From: Kiloniella spongiae
GTDB lineage: Bacteria; Pseudomonadota; Alphaproteobacteria; Kiloniellales; Kiloniellaceae
NCBI RefSeq assembly: GCF_001026905.1
Contig: NZ_LAQL01000007.1
Coordinates: 186,001-250,000, forward strand
Direction: 5' to 3'
DNA length: 64,000 bases
Shown here one piece after another: positions 48,723 to 54,011 of this stretch. The translations under genes were made by a program, and so were the position numbers. Below the pieces are notes generated by a model. The model did not search any database, was not told the DNA's origin, and worked only from the letters and a program-made list of their open reading frames with translations. How positions within the stretch are numbered: the first letter of the stretch is position 1; each line of letters begins with the position of its first letter.

Positions 48723-49214
48723 ATGAGTAGAATTGCTCTTGATGCTGCAGATATTCGTATTCTTGCCGCAGTGCAACAGAATGGGCAGCTCAGTAAATCG
48801 AGACTTGCAGATATTGTGAATCTCTCGCCCACTCCTTGCTGGACACGTTTGGGAAAACTCAAGAAAGCGGGATTGATTAAGAGGTATTCTGCTGAAATTG
48901 CGCTCGACAGTATTGTGAGCCTGTCCAAAGTTATTGTGACTGTTTCTTTAGCGAACCACCGCAAGCAGAATTTTGAGTGCTTTGAAGCCCATATTCGTGA
49001 TGAGGATGACGTTGTGGAATGTATCGCCACAGGGGGCGGTACCGATTACGTGATGAAAGTTGTCTCTAGGGATCTATCTTCTTTTCAGGATATGATGGAG
49101 GTCATGCTTTCTGCAGAATTGGGAATTGATCGTTACATGACTTACATTGTTACCAGAGAGGTCAAATCTGCTTCACCAAACCTCTCGCGATTGCTTCCTG
49201 AACCGAAAGGTTGA
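48723..49214 (+). CDS. Lrp/AsnC-family transcriptional regulator
   Basis: 163 residues. Helix-turn-helix near the start (LDAADIRILAAVQQNGQLSK, then IVNLSPTPCWTRLGKLKKAG) and a C-terminal RAM/ligand domain (VVECIATGGGTDYVMKVVSRDL, ELGIDRYMTYIVTREVK). Such proteins form octamers or dimers that sense amino acids or other small metabolites. It lies directly upstream of and on the same strand as the DmdA-like cassette, so it is the likely local regulator. ATG 48723 fits the family N terminus; ATG 48702 is possible. Confidence 0.9.
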   Translation: MSRIALDAADIRILAAVQQNGQLSKSRLADIVNLSPTPCWTRLGKLKKAGLIKRYSAEIALDSIVSLSKVIVTVSLANHRKQNFECFEAHIRDEDDVVECIATGGGTDYVMKVVSRDLSSFQDMMEVMLSAELGIDRYMTYIVTREVKSASPNLSRLLPEPKG

Positions 49215-49410
49215 AGCACTATCAGATACTTCAAAAATGCCGATCTAATGGCAAAAGACTAAATGGATTACATGGGCAAGTAATATTAGTCTGTTTGGTC
49301 TTTTAGATAGAAAAACTTAGACCGTTTTTTCCTGTAATCACTGTTAGCGTCTAATTGAATTTGATTTAGATGAAGCAGCGAAAAAAGCTGCTCAAACAAA
49401 GGTGAGCAGC
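49215..49410 (+). promoter_or_regulatory. Promoter/leader of the DmdA-like gene with repeated half-sites and competing hairpins
   Basis: Half-sites AGACTAA (49256-49262) and TTAGTCT (49286-49292) form a 7-bp inverted repeat, and related TTAGAC (49317) and GTCTAA (49349) follow at about 30-bp spacing, possible Lrp targets. Just before the start codon GCTGCTC (49387-49393) can pair with AGCAGC (49374-49379) or with GAGCAGC (49404-49410). The second hairpin puts AAAGG in its loop and ends at ATG 49411. Confidence 0.5.
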
Positions 49411-50556
49411 ATGGCGAACACTGACGATTTTGGTTTTGGTACACAAATCCGCAAATCCCCTTATTTTGATGCAACTGTCCGCTGGGGAGCAAAAGCATTT
49501 TCTGTATACAATCATATGTACATCCCCCGTGATTTTGGTAATCCGGAACAGAACTTCTGGAACCTGATAAATGATGCGATCTTGTGCGATGTGGCGGTTG
49601 AGCGGCAGGTCGAAATTACAGGCCCTGATGCGGGAAAATTTGTTCAGTTGTTAACCCCGCGAGATTTATCAAATCTTGCAGTTGGGCAATGTAAGTACAT
49701 TTTGATTACCAATGCTGATGGTGGGATCTTGAATGATCCGATTTTACTGCGCTTGGCAGAGAAGCATTACTGGATATCTCTGGCTGACAGCGATCTCTTG
49801 TTTTGGGCACAGGGGGTTGCAGTTCATTCGGGCTTGGATGTGAAGGTTCGCGAACCTGATGTTTCTCCTCTTCAATTACAGGGGCCCAAATCCGGTGAAG
49901 TGATGAAGGCGCTATTTGGCGAAAGTATTATGGATCTGCGTTACTATTGGCTGCGTGAAGTCAATCTTGATGGAATTCCATTGATCGTTTCACGGACAGG
50001 GTGGTCAAGTGAGCTTGGCTATGAACTTTACCTTCGTGATTCTGCAGATGGTAATGCGTTGTGGGAGAAGATCATGAAAGCAGGTGAGCCTTTGGGATTA
50101 AAGCCCGGACATACATCTTCAATTCGCCGGATAGAGGGTGGGATGCTGTCCTATCATGCAGACATGGATATTCTGACTAATCCTTATGAATTAGGATTGG
50201 ATCGATTAGTTGATTTAAACATGGAAGCAGAGTTTATTGGTAAAGATGCTTTAAAGGCAATCCATCGAAATGGTGTCGCCCGTAAACAGGTTGGCCTTCG
50301 AATTGAGGGGCCGGCACTTAAAGGTCCGAATACAACGTTTTGGTCTGTGCAAAAAGATGATCAAGTTGTGGGAAAGGTGACTTCAGCCGTTTATTCTCCT
50401 CGTCTTGAGCAAAATATTGCCTTGGCGATGGTCGCTGCTGAAGTGGGTGAGATTGGTGCTGTTTTTAGTGTTGAAATGCCGTCTGGGATTGTAAAGGCAA
50501 CTGTTGTAGACAAGCCTTTCTTTGACCCGAAAAAGAAGATTGCTGCCGCAGCCTGA
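49411..50556 (+). CDS. dmdA: DmdA-like GcvT-family protein (candidate dimethylsulfoniopropionate demethylase)
   Basis: 381 residues of the aminomethyltransferase (GcvT) fold. Features I associate with DmdA are VRWGAKAFSVYNHMYIPRDF, VERQVEITGPDAGKFVQLLTP, GGILNDPILL (Asn where GcvT has the catalytic Asp), SLADSDLLFWAQGV and IRRIEGGMLSYHADM. DmdA moves a methyl group from DMSP to tetrahydrofolate, giving methylmercaptopropionate, in marine bacteria. Other GcvT-like demethylases share much of this, so the substrate needs testing. ATG 49411 has AAAGG about 9 nt upstream; an in-frame GTG at 49402 is possible. It is followed by OsmC, crotonase-fold and acyl-CoA ligase genes. Confidence 0.75.
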   Translation: MANTDDFGFGTQIRKSPYFDATVRWGAKAFSVYNHMYIPRDFGNPEQNFWNLINDAILCDVAVERQVEITGPDAGKFVQLLTPRDLSNLAVGQCKYILITNADGGILNDPILLRLAEKHYWISLADSDLLFWAQGVAVHSGLDVKVREPDVSPLQLQGPKSGEVMKALFGESIMDLRYYWLREVNLDGIPLIVSRTGWSSELGYELYLRDSADGNALWEKIMKAGEPLGLKPGHTSSIRRIEGGMLSYHADMDILTNPYELGLDRLVDLNMEAEFIGKDALKAIHRNGVARKQVGLRIEGPALKGPNTTFWSVQKDDQVVGKVTSAVYSPRLEQNIALAMVAAEVGEIGAVFSVEMPSGIVKATVVDKPFFDPKKKIAAAA

Positions 50557-50599
50557 GTATACTTGAATATTCCGTACCACTAGCAATGGCTTAAAGATT

Positions 50600-51055
50600 A
50601 TGTCTGAACTTTCTATTGAACTTAGCTGGCGGCGCTCTGAAACAGAATTGCGTCCGGGCAAGTATTCCAATGCACATACCGTGCGCTACAATGATACTTA
50701 TGAGATGCAAGTTGACGCTGCACCTGATTGGGGTGGCGATGCAAGCAACACAAATCCGGAACAGGCTTTGGGGGCTGCTCTATCCAGTTGTCACATGATG
50801 ACCTTTTTGGCATTAGCTGCCAAAGCGGGCTGGCCTGTTGCAGGTTTTAAAGATCGTGCGGTTGCTTATTTAGGTAAGAACCCAAAAGGGCAAATGTCCG
50901 TTGTTAAAATTGATCTGCATCCTGTTGTTGCGTTTGACGCTGGCTTCACGGTTGCAGCAGAAGAACTGGACAAGATGCAACATCGTGCGCATCGGTATTG
51001 TTTTATTGCGAATACATTAGCTGATAACGTCGAAATCAACATTTGCACGATTTAG
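50600..51055 (+). CDS. OsmC-family protein
   Basis: 151 residues of the OsmC/Ohr fold. The two redox Cys are in ALSSCHMMTFLALA and AHRYCFIANTLAD, at family spacing, and NPEQALGAALSSC is the conserved helix start. OsmC/Ohr proteins reduce organic or fatty hydroperoxides using thiols. It lies 43 nt after the DmdA-like gene and 12 nt before the crotonase-fold gene, so it is part of the same operon. In a sulfur-methyl pathway it might handle reactive thiol or sulfur by-products, an inference only. Confidence 0.88.
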   Translation: MSELSIELSWRRSETELRPGKYSNAHTVRYNDTYEMQVDAAPDWGGDASNTNPEQALGAALSSCHMMTFLALAAKAGWPVAGFKDRAVAYLGKNPKGQMSVVKIDLHPVVAFDAGFTVAAEELDKMQHRAHRYCFIANTLADNVEINICTI

Positions 51056-51067
51056 GGAGAACGGGCT

Positions 51068-51880
51068 GTGCCAGAGATTGAATCTGATCAGGATATTCTA
51101 ATCAGTGAGAAAGATGTCACCGGGGTCTTGCGACTTACCTTGAATGATAACAGGCGGCGTAATGCGTTATCGGAAGAAATGTTGCGCGAGTTAGACGTCG
51201 CATTTTCCAGCGCAGCCGTGGATAGCTCGGTACGTGTTATTATTTTGGCGGCGAAAGGATCTGTGTTTAGTTCTGGCCATAACCTTAAGGAGATGACTTC
51301 TGCGCGTGAACATGATGATCGTGGTAGAGCTTATTTTGCCAAAATACTAGCATTATGTGCCAAGGTTATGCAGGGAATTGTCGCTTGTCCGAAACCTGTT
51401 ATTGCTGAAGTCTCTGGGGTTGCTACGGCAGCAGGCTGTCAATTGGTGGCAAGCTGTGATCTCGCCATTGCATCTCAAACAGCTCAATTCAGTACACCGG
51501 GCGTTCATATAGGGCTTTTCTGTTCAACGCCTATGGTCGCTTTATCGCGCAATGTATCAAACAAGCATGCCATGGAAATGCTTTTGACCGGGGATATGAT
51601 TTCTGCGGCCCGGGCTGCAGAAATAGGTTTGATTAACCGGATTACCTCTGAACAAGAATTAAGTGAAGCAGTACTAGCACTGGCGCACAAGATTGCATCA
51701 AAATCCAGTTTGACACTCGCGACTGGGAAACGCGCTTTTTACGAGCAATGTGAAATGAGCTTGTCGAAGGCTTACGAGTACGCATCGAATGTGATGGTTG
51801 AAAATATGCTGGCGTTTGATGCCGAAGAAGGCATCGGCGCTTTTGTTGAAAAGCGCACGCCACAGTGGCGAGATGAATAA
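51068..51880 (+). CDS. Crotonase-fold protein (ECHDC3-like), catalytic glutamates absent
   Basis: 270 residues. Enoyl-CoA hydratase/isomerase fold with the oxyanion-hole stretch FSSGHNLKEM and SGVATAAGCQLVASCDLAIA. The two catalytic Glu of hydratases are not seen: the first position is Gln (AGCQLV where GCELA is usual) and the second is Gly (TPGVHIG where PEI is usual). This pattern, with GLFCSTPMVAL, resembles ECHDC3-type proteins whose reaction is unclear. It is therefore unlikely to be the DmdD hydratase. The GTG start at 51068 has AGGGAG about 8 nt upstream. Confidence 0.87.
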   Translation: MPEIESDQDILISEKDVTGVLRLTLNDNRRRNALSEEMLRELDVAFSSAAVDSSVRVIILAAKGSVFSSGHNLKEMTSAREHDDRGRAYFAKILALCAKVMQGIVACPKPVIAEVSGVATAAGCQLVASCDLAIASQTAQFSTPGVHIGLFCSTPMVALSRNVSNKHAMEMLLTGDMISAARAAEIGLINRITSEQELSEAVLALAHKIASKSSLTLATGKRAFYEQCEMSLSKAYEYASNVMVENMLAFDAEEGIGAFVEKRTPQWRDE

Positions 51881-51902
51881 GCCCGAAATGAGTAGGTTGG
51901 AG

Positions 51903-53555
51903 ATGAGTAATCCCTATAACACCGATCTTGATCGTAATCCTGCTAACTATCAGCCTTTGACCCCTTTGAGCTTTCTCGAACGTGCGGCGAGTGTATTCCC
52001 GAAACATGTGGCAATTATTCATGGTGAATTGCGACGTATCTATGCTGATTTTTATACCCGCTCGCGCCAATTGGCTTCTGCGTTATCGCAACGTGGTATT
52101 AACCGTGGCGATACTGTTTCTGTTTTGCTGGCGAATACACCTGCTATGCTGGAATGTCATTACGGGGTGCCGATGTGCGGGGGCGTGCTGCATTCAATAA
52201 ATACAAGGCTGGATGCGGCGGTCATTGCATTCCAGCTGGATCATGCCGGGGCAAAGGTCGCAATCGTTGATCGGGAATTTATGCCACTGATGCAACAGGC
52301 ACTCGCTTTGGCGACCGTTGCCCCAACGCTTGTTCAGTATGACGATCCTGAATATTCTCAACCGGCGCAGTTGGTTGATAGCCTTGATGTCGATACTCTG
52401 GATTATGAGAAAATGTTATCGCAGGGAGATGCTGAGTTTGACTGGCTGATGCCCGAAGATGAATGGGACGCTATTTCTATAAACTATACGTCCGGTACAA
52501 CGGGTGATCCCAAGGGCGTGGTGTCTCACCACCGGGGCGCTTATTTGTTGGCACAAGGAAATGCTCTGACAACCTCAATGGCTAAACATTCTGTCTATCT
52601 GTGGACGCTTCCGATGTTTCATTGTAATGGCTGGTGCTTTCCTTGGACTCTCTCAGCCGTGATAGGAACGCACGTTTGTCTGAGACAGGTGCGGGCTGAG
52701 CCAATCTGGAATGCATTGGCAGATCACGGTGTGACGCATTTGTGTGGGGCGCCGATCGTTATGTCCTTGATGATTTCTGCTCCAGATAGCGAAAAGCGAG
52801 ATTTGGACCACGCAGTTCAGTTTTTGACTGCGGCGTCTCCTCCACCGCAAAAGCTGTTGGCGGATATGAAGTCTGCCGGATTTGATGTTACCCATTTGTA
52901 CGGTCTCACGGAAACCTATGGACCTGCTGTGGTGAATGATTGGCATCAGGAATGGTCAGATCTGTCGCCGGATCAACAGGCCAGTCTTAAGGCAAGACAG
53001 GGTGTCCGATATTTACCCTTGGAGCAATTGGATGTCATTAACCCGGAAACAATGACACCAGTACCTCGTGACGGCGAAACACTGGGGGAAGTGATGTTCC
53101 GCGGCAATGTTGTAATGAAAGGTTATTTTCGTAATCCAAAGGCAACGAAAGAGGCCTTCGCCGGGGGATGGTTCCATTCCGGTGATTTGGGCGTAATGCA
53201 CCCTGACGGATATATAGAGCTCAAAGACAGGTCGAAGGATATTATTATATCCGGGGGCGAAAATATTTCGTCAATTGAAGTCGAGGAAATTCTTTATCGA
53301 CACCCCGCGGTTGCCGTCGTCGCCGTCGTTGCAATGCCGCATAAAAAATGGGGAGAAACGCCCTGCGCTTTTGTCGAAGTTGCTTCAGATAAGAATGTGA
53401 ACGAAGAGACACTAAATGATTGGTGTCGAGCGCATCTGGCAGCTTACAAAGTTCCGAAAAAGTTTATTTTTACCTCTATCCCCAGGACATCCACAGGGAA
53501 AATACAGAAGTTTGTTTTAAGAGAGCAGGTCGTAAACCTGAATGATGAAGAGTAA
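51903..53555 (+). CDS. Acyl-CoA synthetase (AMP-forming), possible DmdB-type role
   Basis: 550 residues. ANL superfamily: P loop YTSGTTGDPKGV, A5 LYGLTETYGP, A8 hinge GWFHSGDLGVMHPDGY and SKDIIISGGENISS, and catalytic Lys in RTSTGKIQK. The N terminus (NPANYQPLTPLSFLERAA) is that of the AAE-like medium/short-chain group, which differs from the DmdB sequences I remember, so a methylmercaptopropionate ligase role rests on context only. The start is unclear: ATG 51903 (MSNPYNT) fits the family, with weak AGG spacing; ATGs at 51873 and 51888 are in frame. It faces rnpB 18 nt away. Confidence 0.88.
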   Translation: MSNPYNTDLDRNPANYQPLTPLSFLERAASVFPKHVAIIHGELRRIYADFYTRSRQLASALSQRGINRGDTVSVLLANTPAMLECHYGVPMCGGVLHSINTRLDAAVIAFQLDHAGAKVAIVDREFMPLMQQALALATVAPTLVQYDDPEYSQPAQLVDSLDVDTLDYEKMLSQGDAEFDWLMPEDEWDAISINYTSGTTGDPKGVVSHHRGAYLLAQGNALTTSMAKHSVYLWTLPMFHCNGWCFPWTLSAVIGTHVCLRQVRAEPIWNALADHGVTHLCGAPIVMSLMISAPDSEKRDLDHAVQFLTAASPPPQKLLADMKSAGFDVTHLYGLTETYGPAVVNDWHQEWSDLSPDQQASLKARQGVRYLPLEQLDVINPETMTPVPRDGETLGEVMFRGNVVMKGYFRNPKATKEAFAGGWFHSGDLGVMHPDGYIELKDRSKDIIISGGENISSIEVEEILYRHPAVAVVAVVAMPHKKWGETPCAFVEVASDKNVNEETLNDWCRAHLAAYKVPKKFIFTSIPRTSTGKIQKFVLREQVVNLNDEE

Positions 53556-53572
53556 GGTTTGGAGAGATAGAT

Positions 53573-54011
53573 GTCAGACGGTCATAAGCCGGGTTTTGTC
53601 GCTTGCCACAAAGCCGAAGCCCGTGACAACGGAAGGCTATTCATCTGGGATGCTCATTGCTGAGCACCTCTCGCAACTGACCCGGTCGACGATGCGGAAA
53701 AACACCTGATTCCTCAAAACAAAGTTTTGTGAATCTGCCGACCCTATTTAGTTTTGCTCCCGGTGGGGTTTACCATGCCGCTTCCATTTCTGGCCGCGCG
53801 GTGTGCTCTTACCACACCCTTTCACCCTTACCTGCTTGTTGCACTCCATAAAGAAATACAGCCTACAGGTGGTTTGCTTTCTGTGGCACTTTCCCTAGGG
53901 TCGCCCCCGCCGGGCGTTACCCGGCACCGTATTCCCGTGGAGCCCGGACTTTCCTCCCTTTCCGGTTCAGGTCAAACCTGCCAGAAAGAGCAGCCTGTCG
54001 GACCGTCTGAC
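53573..54011 (-). ncRNA. rnpB: RNase P RNA
   Basis: Read on the minus strand it has the conserved RNase P RNA features: GAGGAAAGTCCGGGCTCC near the 5' end, the block GGGTAACGCCCGGCGGGGG, the AGGGTGAAAGGGTG region, GTAAACCCCACC with GGAGCAA, GAGGTGCTC and the 3' part ATGAATAGCC. The ends GTCAGACGGTC and GACCGTCTGAC pair as P1, which sets the limits at about 54011 and 53573. It is the ribozyme part of RNase P that trims tRNA 5' ends. The open frame at 53754-54059 on the other strand is spurious. It lies 9 nt downstream of the amidase stop. Confidence 0.95.

Follow-up and report, generated by a model that had tools for sequence, protein, structure and literature searches.

The question raised by a 64,000-nucleotide stretch of the Kiloniella spongiae genome (contig NZ_LAQL01000007.1, positions 186,001 to 250,000, forward strand; hereafter the window) is whether five genes at its positions 48723-53555, one of which encodes a relative of the dimethylsulfoniopropionate (DMSP) demethylase DmdA, provide a further route for DMSP or serve another compound. 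A preliminary description of the window suggested a possible variant route, either for DMSP or for a related compound of the methyl-sulfur or methyl-amine kind. The gene order, recurrence, clade position, residue pattern and conserved palindrome of this cassette, all of which are observed directly, give good support to a real, widespread and sometimes mobile demethylation unit that is related to, but distinct from, dmdABCD. We tentatively regard it as a module under regulation that breaks down a methylated zwitterionic (onium) osmolyte, most probably a sulfonium compound other than DMSP, by demethylation combined with CoA activation. The features are as follows.

48723..49214, + strand: Lrp/AsnC-family regulator, Pfam PF13412 (HTH_24) and PF01037 (AsnC_trans_reg); likely start 48723
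49286..49303, - strand: 18-bp palindrome-like site, candidate DmdAL operator, 13/18 matches to TCAGACCAAACGGTCTGA
49411..50556, + strand: DmdA-like GcvT-family protein (DmdAL), PF01571 (GCV_T) and PF08669 (GCV_T_C)
50600..51055, + strand: OsmC-family protein with conserved C64 and C134, PF02566; likely start 50600
51068..51880, + strand: ECHDC3-type (PRK08139) crotonase, Pfam ECH_1, NF006008; likely GTG start 51068
51903..53555, + strand: PRK08162-type acyl-CoA ligase, Pfam AMP-binding, NF006020

The five open reading frames lie on one strand in the order Lrp-DmdAL-OsmC-crotonase-ligase with the Pfam domains expected from the preliminary description, including the additional OsmC protein. As that description also states, the set differs from dmdABCD in that no acyl-CoA dehydrogenase is encoded within the five-gene cassette. 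DmdAL likely starts at ATG 49411, GTG 49402 being possible, and the ligase likely starts at ATG 51903 or 51888. The closest named relative of DmdAL is that of Kiloniella majae (85% identity).

Relationship of the cassette proteins to DmdA and other families

The DMSP demethylase model NF009133 is the best NCBIfam match of DmdAL (377.7 bits), and DmdA of P. ubique (3tfh) is its best solved relative. The score is below the curated cut-off of 410, as are those of all DmdAL proteins listed in 26 genomes (the window genome and the 25 genomes of 26 loci chosen from the 79 described below). This cut-off is not used as a sole criterion, however, because a protein that heads dmdBCD on a Marivivens plasmid is also under it (360.5 bits). 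DmdAL is below both curated cut-offs of the GcvT aminomethyltransferase models as well (NF001567, 188.2 against 300; TIGR00528, 158 against 235.85). It is 39% identical to the two DmdA rows compared. A true DmdA is encoded elsewhere in the window genome (C13:938-2041, 554.8 bits on NF009133).

In two trees, one of 65 rows and one of the 57 rows left after removal of eight long or outgroup rows, DmdAL belongs to a supported clade (20 to 22 rows) that is separate from the 15 DmdA rows (support 100/100; both trees). A single clade of 21 DmdAL rows and the 15 DmdA rows is rejected by the approximately unbiased (AU) test (36 rows against 21, p 0.0002; 57-row tree), for which this union was named after the first tree had been seen, the question itself having been posed earlier by the preliminary description. 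The nearest kin of DmdA is a sister group of seven, among which dmdBCD neighbours are seen only for the Marivivens plasmid protein that heads dmdB-dmdC-dmdD, the other six not being seen with dmdBCD. Other groups, such as the haloarchaeal relatives, are placed differently in the two trees, and 3tfh is a row flagged as a long branch. The Marivivens operon is located on a plasmid of strain LCG002 (L113 9977-15136), and the sub-cut-off DmdA relative at its head is probably an unlabelled type of DMSP demethylase. A similar protein is encoded about 6 kb from an SBP56 gene in genome G069, which we take to be that of R. pomeroyi DSS-3.

The residues at the folate and DMSP sites, the roles of which are taken from PMC7487153, were compared in 96 core DmdAL rows, a few of which represent one gene fetched twice. 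The folate-site residues S126, E208 and Y210 are invariant in 96/96 rows, as is W201, which corresponds to the DMSP-site tryptophan W197 of 3tfh. This tryptophan is not diagnostic, because the DmdA rows themselves have tryptophan in 6/15 and tyrosine in 9/15, Kiloniella's own DmdA being among the latter; W197 is therefore dropped as a marker of DMSP. At 3tfh positions 154, 195, 200, 201 and 238, all 15 DmdA rows and all seven sister-group rows have A, S, Q, G and E, whereas core DmdAL has Q, T, E, L (95/96) and R, which are Q158, T199, E204, L205 and R242 in DmdAL numbering. The single GcvT row shares A and S at positions 154 and 195, so that positions 200, 201 and 238 carry most weight.

Identification of DmdAL as DmdA is rejected by its clade position, its sub-cut-off score on NF009133 and the five differing residues. 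By sequence, DmdAL is a cousin of DmdA that stands outside the DmdA clade, and it is probably a tetrahydrofolate (THF)-dependent demethylase. DMSP is not supported as its substrate, because of the clade position, the separate true DmdA and the five differing residues. A grouping outside the DmdA clades is the outcome that the preliminary description had itself named as counting against its proposal. The better half of that proposal is its wider wording, in which a related methyl-sulfur or methyl-amine compound may be the substrate; a demethylation cassette is well supported, and its action on DMSP is not.

The crotonase is a full member of the PRK08139 family (391.9 bits on NF006008, cut-off 313). 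It carries the AAGCQ and GLFCSTP motifs of this ECHDC3-type family, and human ECHDC3 (2vx2) is its second-best PDB match. It lacks the catalytic glutamate, as had been noticed; both catalytic positions are replaced (Q125 and G145) in 88/88 aligned rows, in which C97, C124, C130 and C152 are conserved at the 97% level. To our knowledge, no function is known for the PRK08139/ECHDC3 family. The ligase belongs, as had been suspected, to a different group from that of the dmd pathway: it is a full member of the PRK08162 type (899 bits on NF006020, cut-off 677) and not a member of the methylmercaptopropionate (MMPA)-CoA ligase family (298 bits on PRK07008, cut-off 822). C64 and C134 of the OsmC protein are both conserved at the 97% level in 53 rows. 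Its nearest solved chain is 2d7v (VCA0330), and its best score on the OsmC/Ohr peroxidase subfamily models TIGR03561-03563, 36.4 bits, is below the cut-off of 166.15.

Recurrence and regulation of the cassette

From 285 stretches encoding a DmdAL relative, 79 distinct loci were kept and split by the organism name in the record into 59 non-gammaproteobacterial and 20 gammaproteobacterial loci. The cassette is not a chance assembly, because its order recurs among these loci. An Lrp gene is located directly upstream of DmdAL in 46 of the 55 non-gammaproteobacterial loci with room for it. Of the 49 whose downstream sequence extends for at least 3.5 kb, 30 have OsmC, 28 the crotonase, 26 the ligase, 18 all three and 12 none of them. 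The five-gene unit is found in many Rhodobacteraceae. DmdAL proteins of 60-80% identity are also encoded in six plasmid records, and the five genes are intact in all four that were viewed (Phaeobacter inhibens pP51_d, pP30_b and pP88_b, and Loktanella plas1). The cassette is flanked by tyrosine recombinases on pP30_b and adjoins a conjugation gene on pP88_b; it is sometimes mobile and plasmid-borne. None of the six plasmid copies of DmdAL bears an annotation other than 'glycine cleavage T C-terminal barrel domain-containing protein', and no paper was found whose title or abstract start describes this cassette.

The gammaproteobacterial loci show a second arrangement. The genes near DmdAL encode FolD (17 of the 20 loci), PurU (17), the C-terminal domain of methylenetetrahydrofolate reductase (MTHFR) (10), a DLD-like protein (8), a BCCT transporter (7) and MTHFR (6). 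Directly downstream of DmdAL in the 19 loci with room, OsmC is found in none, crotonase in one and ligase in none; anywhere in the 20 loci the numbers are 8, 10 and 9, the proteins being mostly diverged. A diverged OsmC-crotonase-ligase set (about 35/48/51%), with most or all members present, is located near DmdAL in 9/20 loci (L035, L038, L039, L043, L044, L049, L050, L068 and L090), some of which are cut by the end of the contig or locus. Lrp, FolD, PurU, DmdAL, OsmC, crotonase, ligase, MTHFR and BCCT are united at a Sedimentimonas locus (L061). A 58% relative in Lichenihabitans is also located near PurU, FolD and MTHFR. Relatives on two haloarchaeal plasmids (L200 and L201) adjoin genes for MTHFR and for FolD or dihydrofolate reductase. 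The Amphritea loci (L043, L044 and L050) contain one or two DmdAL genes, accompanied by FolD, PurU and a conserved protein that has no assignment. A conserved protein encoded near DmdAL in six gammaproteobacterial loci (L062 1733-2668) has no NCBIfam or Pfam match; judged by its place, it is possibly a stand-in for MTHFR.

The palindrome TCAGACCAAACGGTCTGA was derived from 8-mers enriched upstream of DmdAL. With at least 13/18 matches it is found in 32/55 training upstreams of DmdAL, compared with 7/550 shuffles and 7/275 random windows, and in 14/29 held-out upstreams (some of them tandem copies from one genome), compared with 47/1580 background windows. At least 12 matches are reached in 55/63 loci whose fetched stretch includes an Lrp gene and in 6/15 whose stretch does not (Fisher p 0.0003), and at least 13 matches in 39/63 and 3/15 respectively (Fisher p 0.004); in these counts one of the 79 loci has too little upstream sequence, and rows that are related cannot be taken as independent. 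Only 11 matches are present in L029, the nearest relative. The palindrome is not clearly above the 3% background upstream of Lrp (2/64), OsmC (2/42), crotonase (0/42), ligase (0/37), PurU (2/18), FolD (1/18), BCCT (1/10) or DLD (0/9). The Lrp-type protein, presumably a local regulator of DmdAL, may pair with this palindrome, and the site is possibly the operator of DmdAL.

No riboswitch is found in the Rfam scan, in which only RNase P exceeds the gathering score. This bacterial class A RNase P RNA (53570-54010, - strand, 296 bits) adjoins the 3' side of the ligase gene, and the small open reading frame that was listed over this RNA is probably not a gene. A weak match to Streptomyces-metK (25.8 of 44.2 bits) is located within the crotonase gene, on the opposite strand. 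The hairpin that covers the DmdAL start in the window is not shared by the 15 loci examined, and the sigma-70 scan is uninformative (4 found, 9.3 expected).

Proposed substrate and pathway

In the module that we tentatively propose, DmdAL would transfer one methyl group from an onium compound to THF, to yield 5-methyl-THF and a methylthio (or dimethylamino) acid. THF is suggested as the acceptor by the family of DmdAL and by its one-carbon neighbours. The MTHFR-type, FolD and PurU neighbours of the gammaproteobacterial versions would oxidise the methyl group to formate, and their BCCT neighbour would import the substrate. The PRK08162-type ligase may convert the demethylated acid into its CoA thioester, the ECHDC3-type crotonase without the glutamates may process this thioester, and OsmC may perform or protect thiol chemistry. 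The Lrp-type protein would control DmdAL through the upstream palindrome.

Hints of sulfur chemistry come from genes near the crotonase and its relatives. On the contig C13 of the window genome that also encodes the true DmdA, a LysR gene is located next to a run encoding acyl-CoA dehydrogenase, crotonase, SBP56, Fer2, CoA_binding and rhodanese proteins (L148 421-5112). The crotonase of this run is 58-63% identical to that of the cassette and, by eye, also lacks both glutamates. The run is kept in genomes G018 and G069. In the G069 copy (L225 7767-8559) the crotonase gene is split over two frames and that of the rhodanese is broken into three pieces, owing to pseudogenes or sequencing errors. 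An SBP56-Fer2-CoA_binding-rhodanese set stands beside the cassette itself in L099, and SBP56 proteins of about 40% are found in L060, L079 and L105. A crotonase relative in S. meliloti is encoded near CoA-binding and O-acetylhomoserine sulfhydrylase genes, and a similar arrangement is present in G018, where the sulfhydrylase gene was named by eye.

Several points weigh against a sulfonium module. Its substrate class, like the ligase, crotonase and OsmC steps, is inferred. The SBP56 links are few (4/79 loci, a raw count given without a background rate). The SBP56 encoded in the C13 run has a score of 155 against 650 for the methanethiol oxidase model, which leaves its activity uncertain. No PurU over the cut-off is found in the window genome, which has one strong and one weaker match to MTHFR. 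A trimethylamine transporter (480 bits) is the closest match of the single BCCT neighbour that was compared, followed by BetT/BetP, with DddT at 200 bits; this similarity fits nitrogen compounds as well as a short sulfonium compound. Finally, the crotonase-ligase pair exists without DmdAL, and DmdAL without the trio in 12/49 non-gammaproteobacterial loci; since each occurs apart, a single pathway is not compelled.

In a rival reading that is considered unlikely, the substrate would be a quaternary ammonium betaine, DmdAL would transfer an N-methyl group to THF, the ligase would activate the demethylated amino acid and the crotonase would remove the amine. The similarity of the BCCT neighbour to trimethylamine and betaine transporters, the Lrp-type regulator, the FolD, PurU and MTHFR neighbours and the two haloarchaeal plasmids with their folate genes are consistent with this substrate. 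However, we know of no precedent for a cobalamin-free transfer of a methyl group from a quaternary ammonium compound to THF, and some other neighbours of the crotonase family point to thiols. In addition, the window genome encodes three MTTB-family proteins, possibly another route for glycine betaine, and a passage of PMC12478193 attributes glycine betaine use in R. pomeroyi to MtgBCD.

Use of the cassette as an isozyme route for DMSP, in which DmdAL demethylates DMSP, the ligase and the crotonase stand in for DmdB and DmdD and a dehydrogenase is supplied from elsewhere, likewise has little probability. The best NCBIfam and solved matches of DmdAL and the retained tryptophan favour this route, as does a long DmdC-type dehydrogenase (43-66%), which is encoded in 24/25 other cassette genomes, K. 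majae being without it. No close DmdC is found in the Kiloniella genomes searched, however: the best match of the window genome to Marivivens DmdC is 35%, in a short acyl-CoA dehydrogenase, and that to Marivivens DmdD is 34%, which gives no sign of an ordinary dmdABCD route in the window genome. DmdAL does not fall within the clade uniting DmdA and its sister group, and the five residues common to these two groups differ, although only 1/7 sister rows is seen in a dmdBCD operon and the single GcvT row shares two of the residues. The window genome already has a true DmdA; a DmdA over the NF009133 cut-off is present in 11/26 DmdAL genomes and absent from 15, including all 11 gammaproteobacterial ones. 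The crotonase lacks the glutamate pair that is conserved in DmdD according to PMC5395565. Amphritea, a carrier of DmdAL, is described in a passage of PMC9327192 as lacking dmdA and unlikely to demethylate DMSP.

It is improbable that no single pathway exists and that a folate-linked Lrp-DmdAL unit, an acyl-CoA unit of crotonase and ligase and an OsmC stress gene are mere neighbours. This is suggested by a Kiloniella genome (G003) that contains, at the same chromosomal spot, only crotonase (80%) and ligase (84%), with both flanks aligning to the window; relative to it, Lrp-DmdAL-OsmC is an extra block. The right-hand alignment starts at 50963, within the terminal 93 bases of the OsmC gene, possibly a sign of a remnant. 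The pair is also present without DmdAL elsewhere in G008 and, behind LysR, in Paracoccus seriniphilus, and as ligase-crotonase behind two glutathione-transferase-type genes in Caballeronia. The absence of the trio in 12/49 loci and the palindrome, which is clearly above background only upstream of DmdAL, agree with separate units, but OsmC, crotonase and ligase recur in operon order beside DmdAL in alphaproteobacteria, the block is intact on the four plasmids viewed, and the diverged set in 9/20 gammaproteobacterial loci is a second arrangement that is hard to obtain by chance.

Quite improbable is a variant of the module in which dimethylsulfonioacetate (DMSA) or a similar short sulfonium compound undergoes demethylation and demethiolation. 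DmdAL would yield methylthioacetate and the ligase its CoA thioester; the crotonase would hold the thioester enolate while a thiol, linked to OsmC or a dithiol reductase, attacks the methylthio sulfur, with release of acetyl-CoA and methyl disulfide or methanethiol. If true, the ECHDC3 crotonases, a family that humans share, would thereby have a first reaction. A core DmdAL is not found in G069, probably DSS-3, where no match exceeds 42% at E 1e-100 and only a sister-group-type relative and a true DmdA are present. This weakens a tie to the release of methanethiol from DMSA by R. pomeroyi DSS-3, described in a section of PMC7221440 that cites DmdA as not accepting DMSA, and makes the likeness to this activity one of kind only.

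If the cassette is a module for a sulfonium osmolyte other than DMSP, marine bacteria would possess, in addition to DmdA, a second demethylation system that is mobile, and DMSP surveys would miss or misname DmdAL. The breakdown of other dimethylsulfonio osmolytes, as yet unassigned, would then have a candidate in the cassette, and the function of ECHDC3-type crotonases would become more accessible.

Comparison with known systems

DmdAL resembles DmdA (NF009133; 3tfh) in its GcvT fold family, folate-site residues and 39% identity, and 3tfh and some other DmdA rows in its DMSP-site tryptophan, but differs from DmdA in its separate clade, sub-cut-off score, five changed residues and operon. The cassette resembles the dmdA-dmdB-dmdC-dmdD operons of Phaeobacter DSM 17395 and Marivivens LCG002 in that a GcvT-like demethylase is combined with a ligase and a crotonase, but it is without DmdC, its ligase and crotonase are from other families, and OsmC and Lrp are added. 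Its crotonase, a full member of the ECHDC3/PRK08139 family, is distinguished by an operon shared with a demethylase and a ligase. Its ligase is a full member of the PRK08162 acyl-CoA synthetases and is distinct from the MMPA-CoA ligases of PRK07008.

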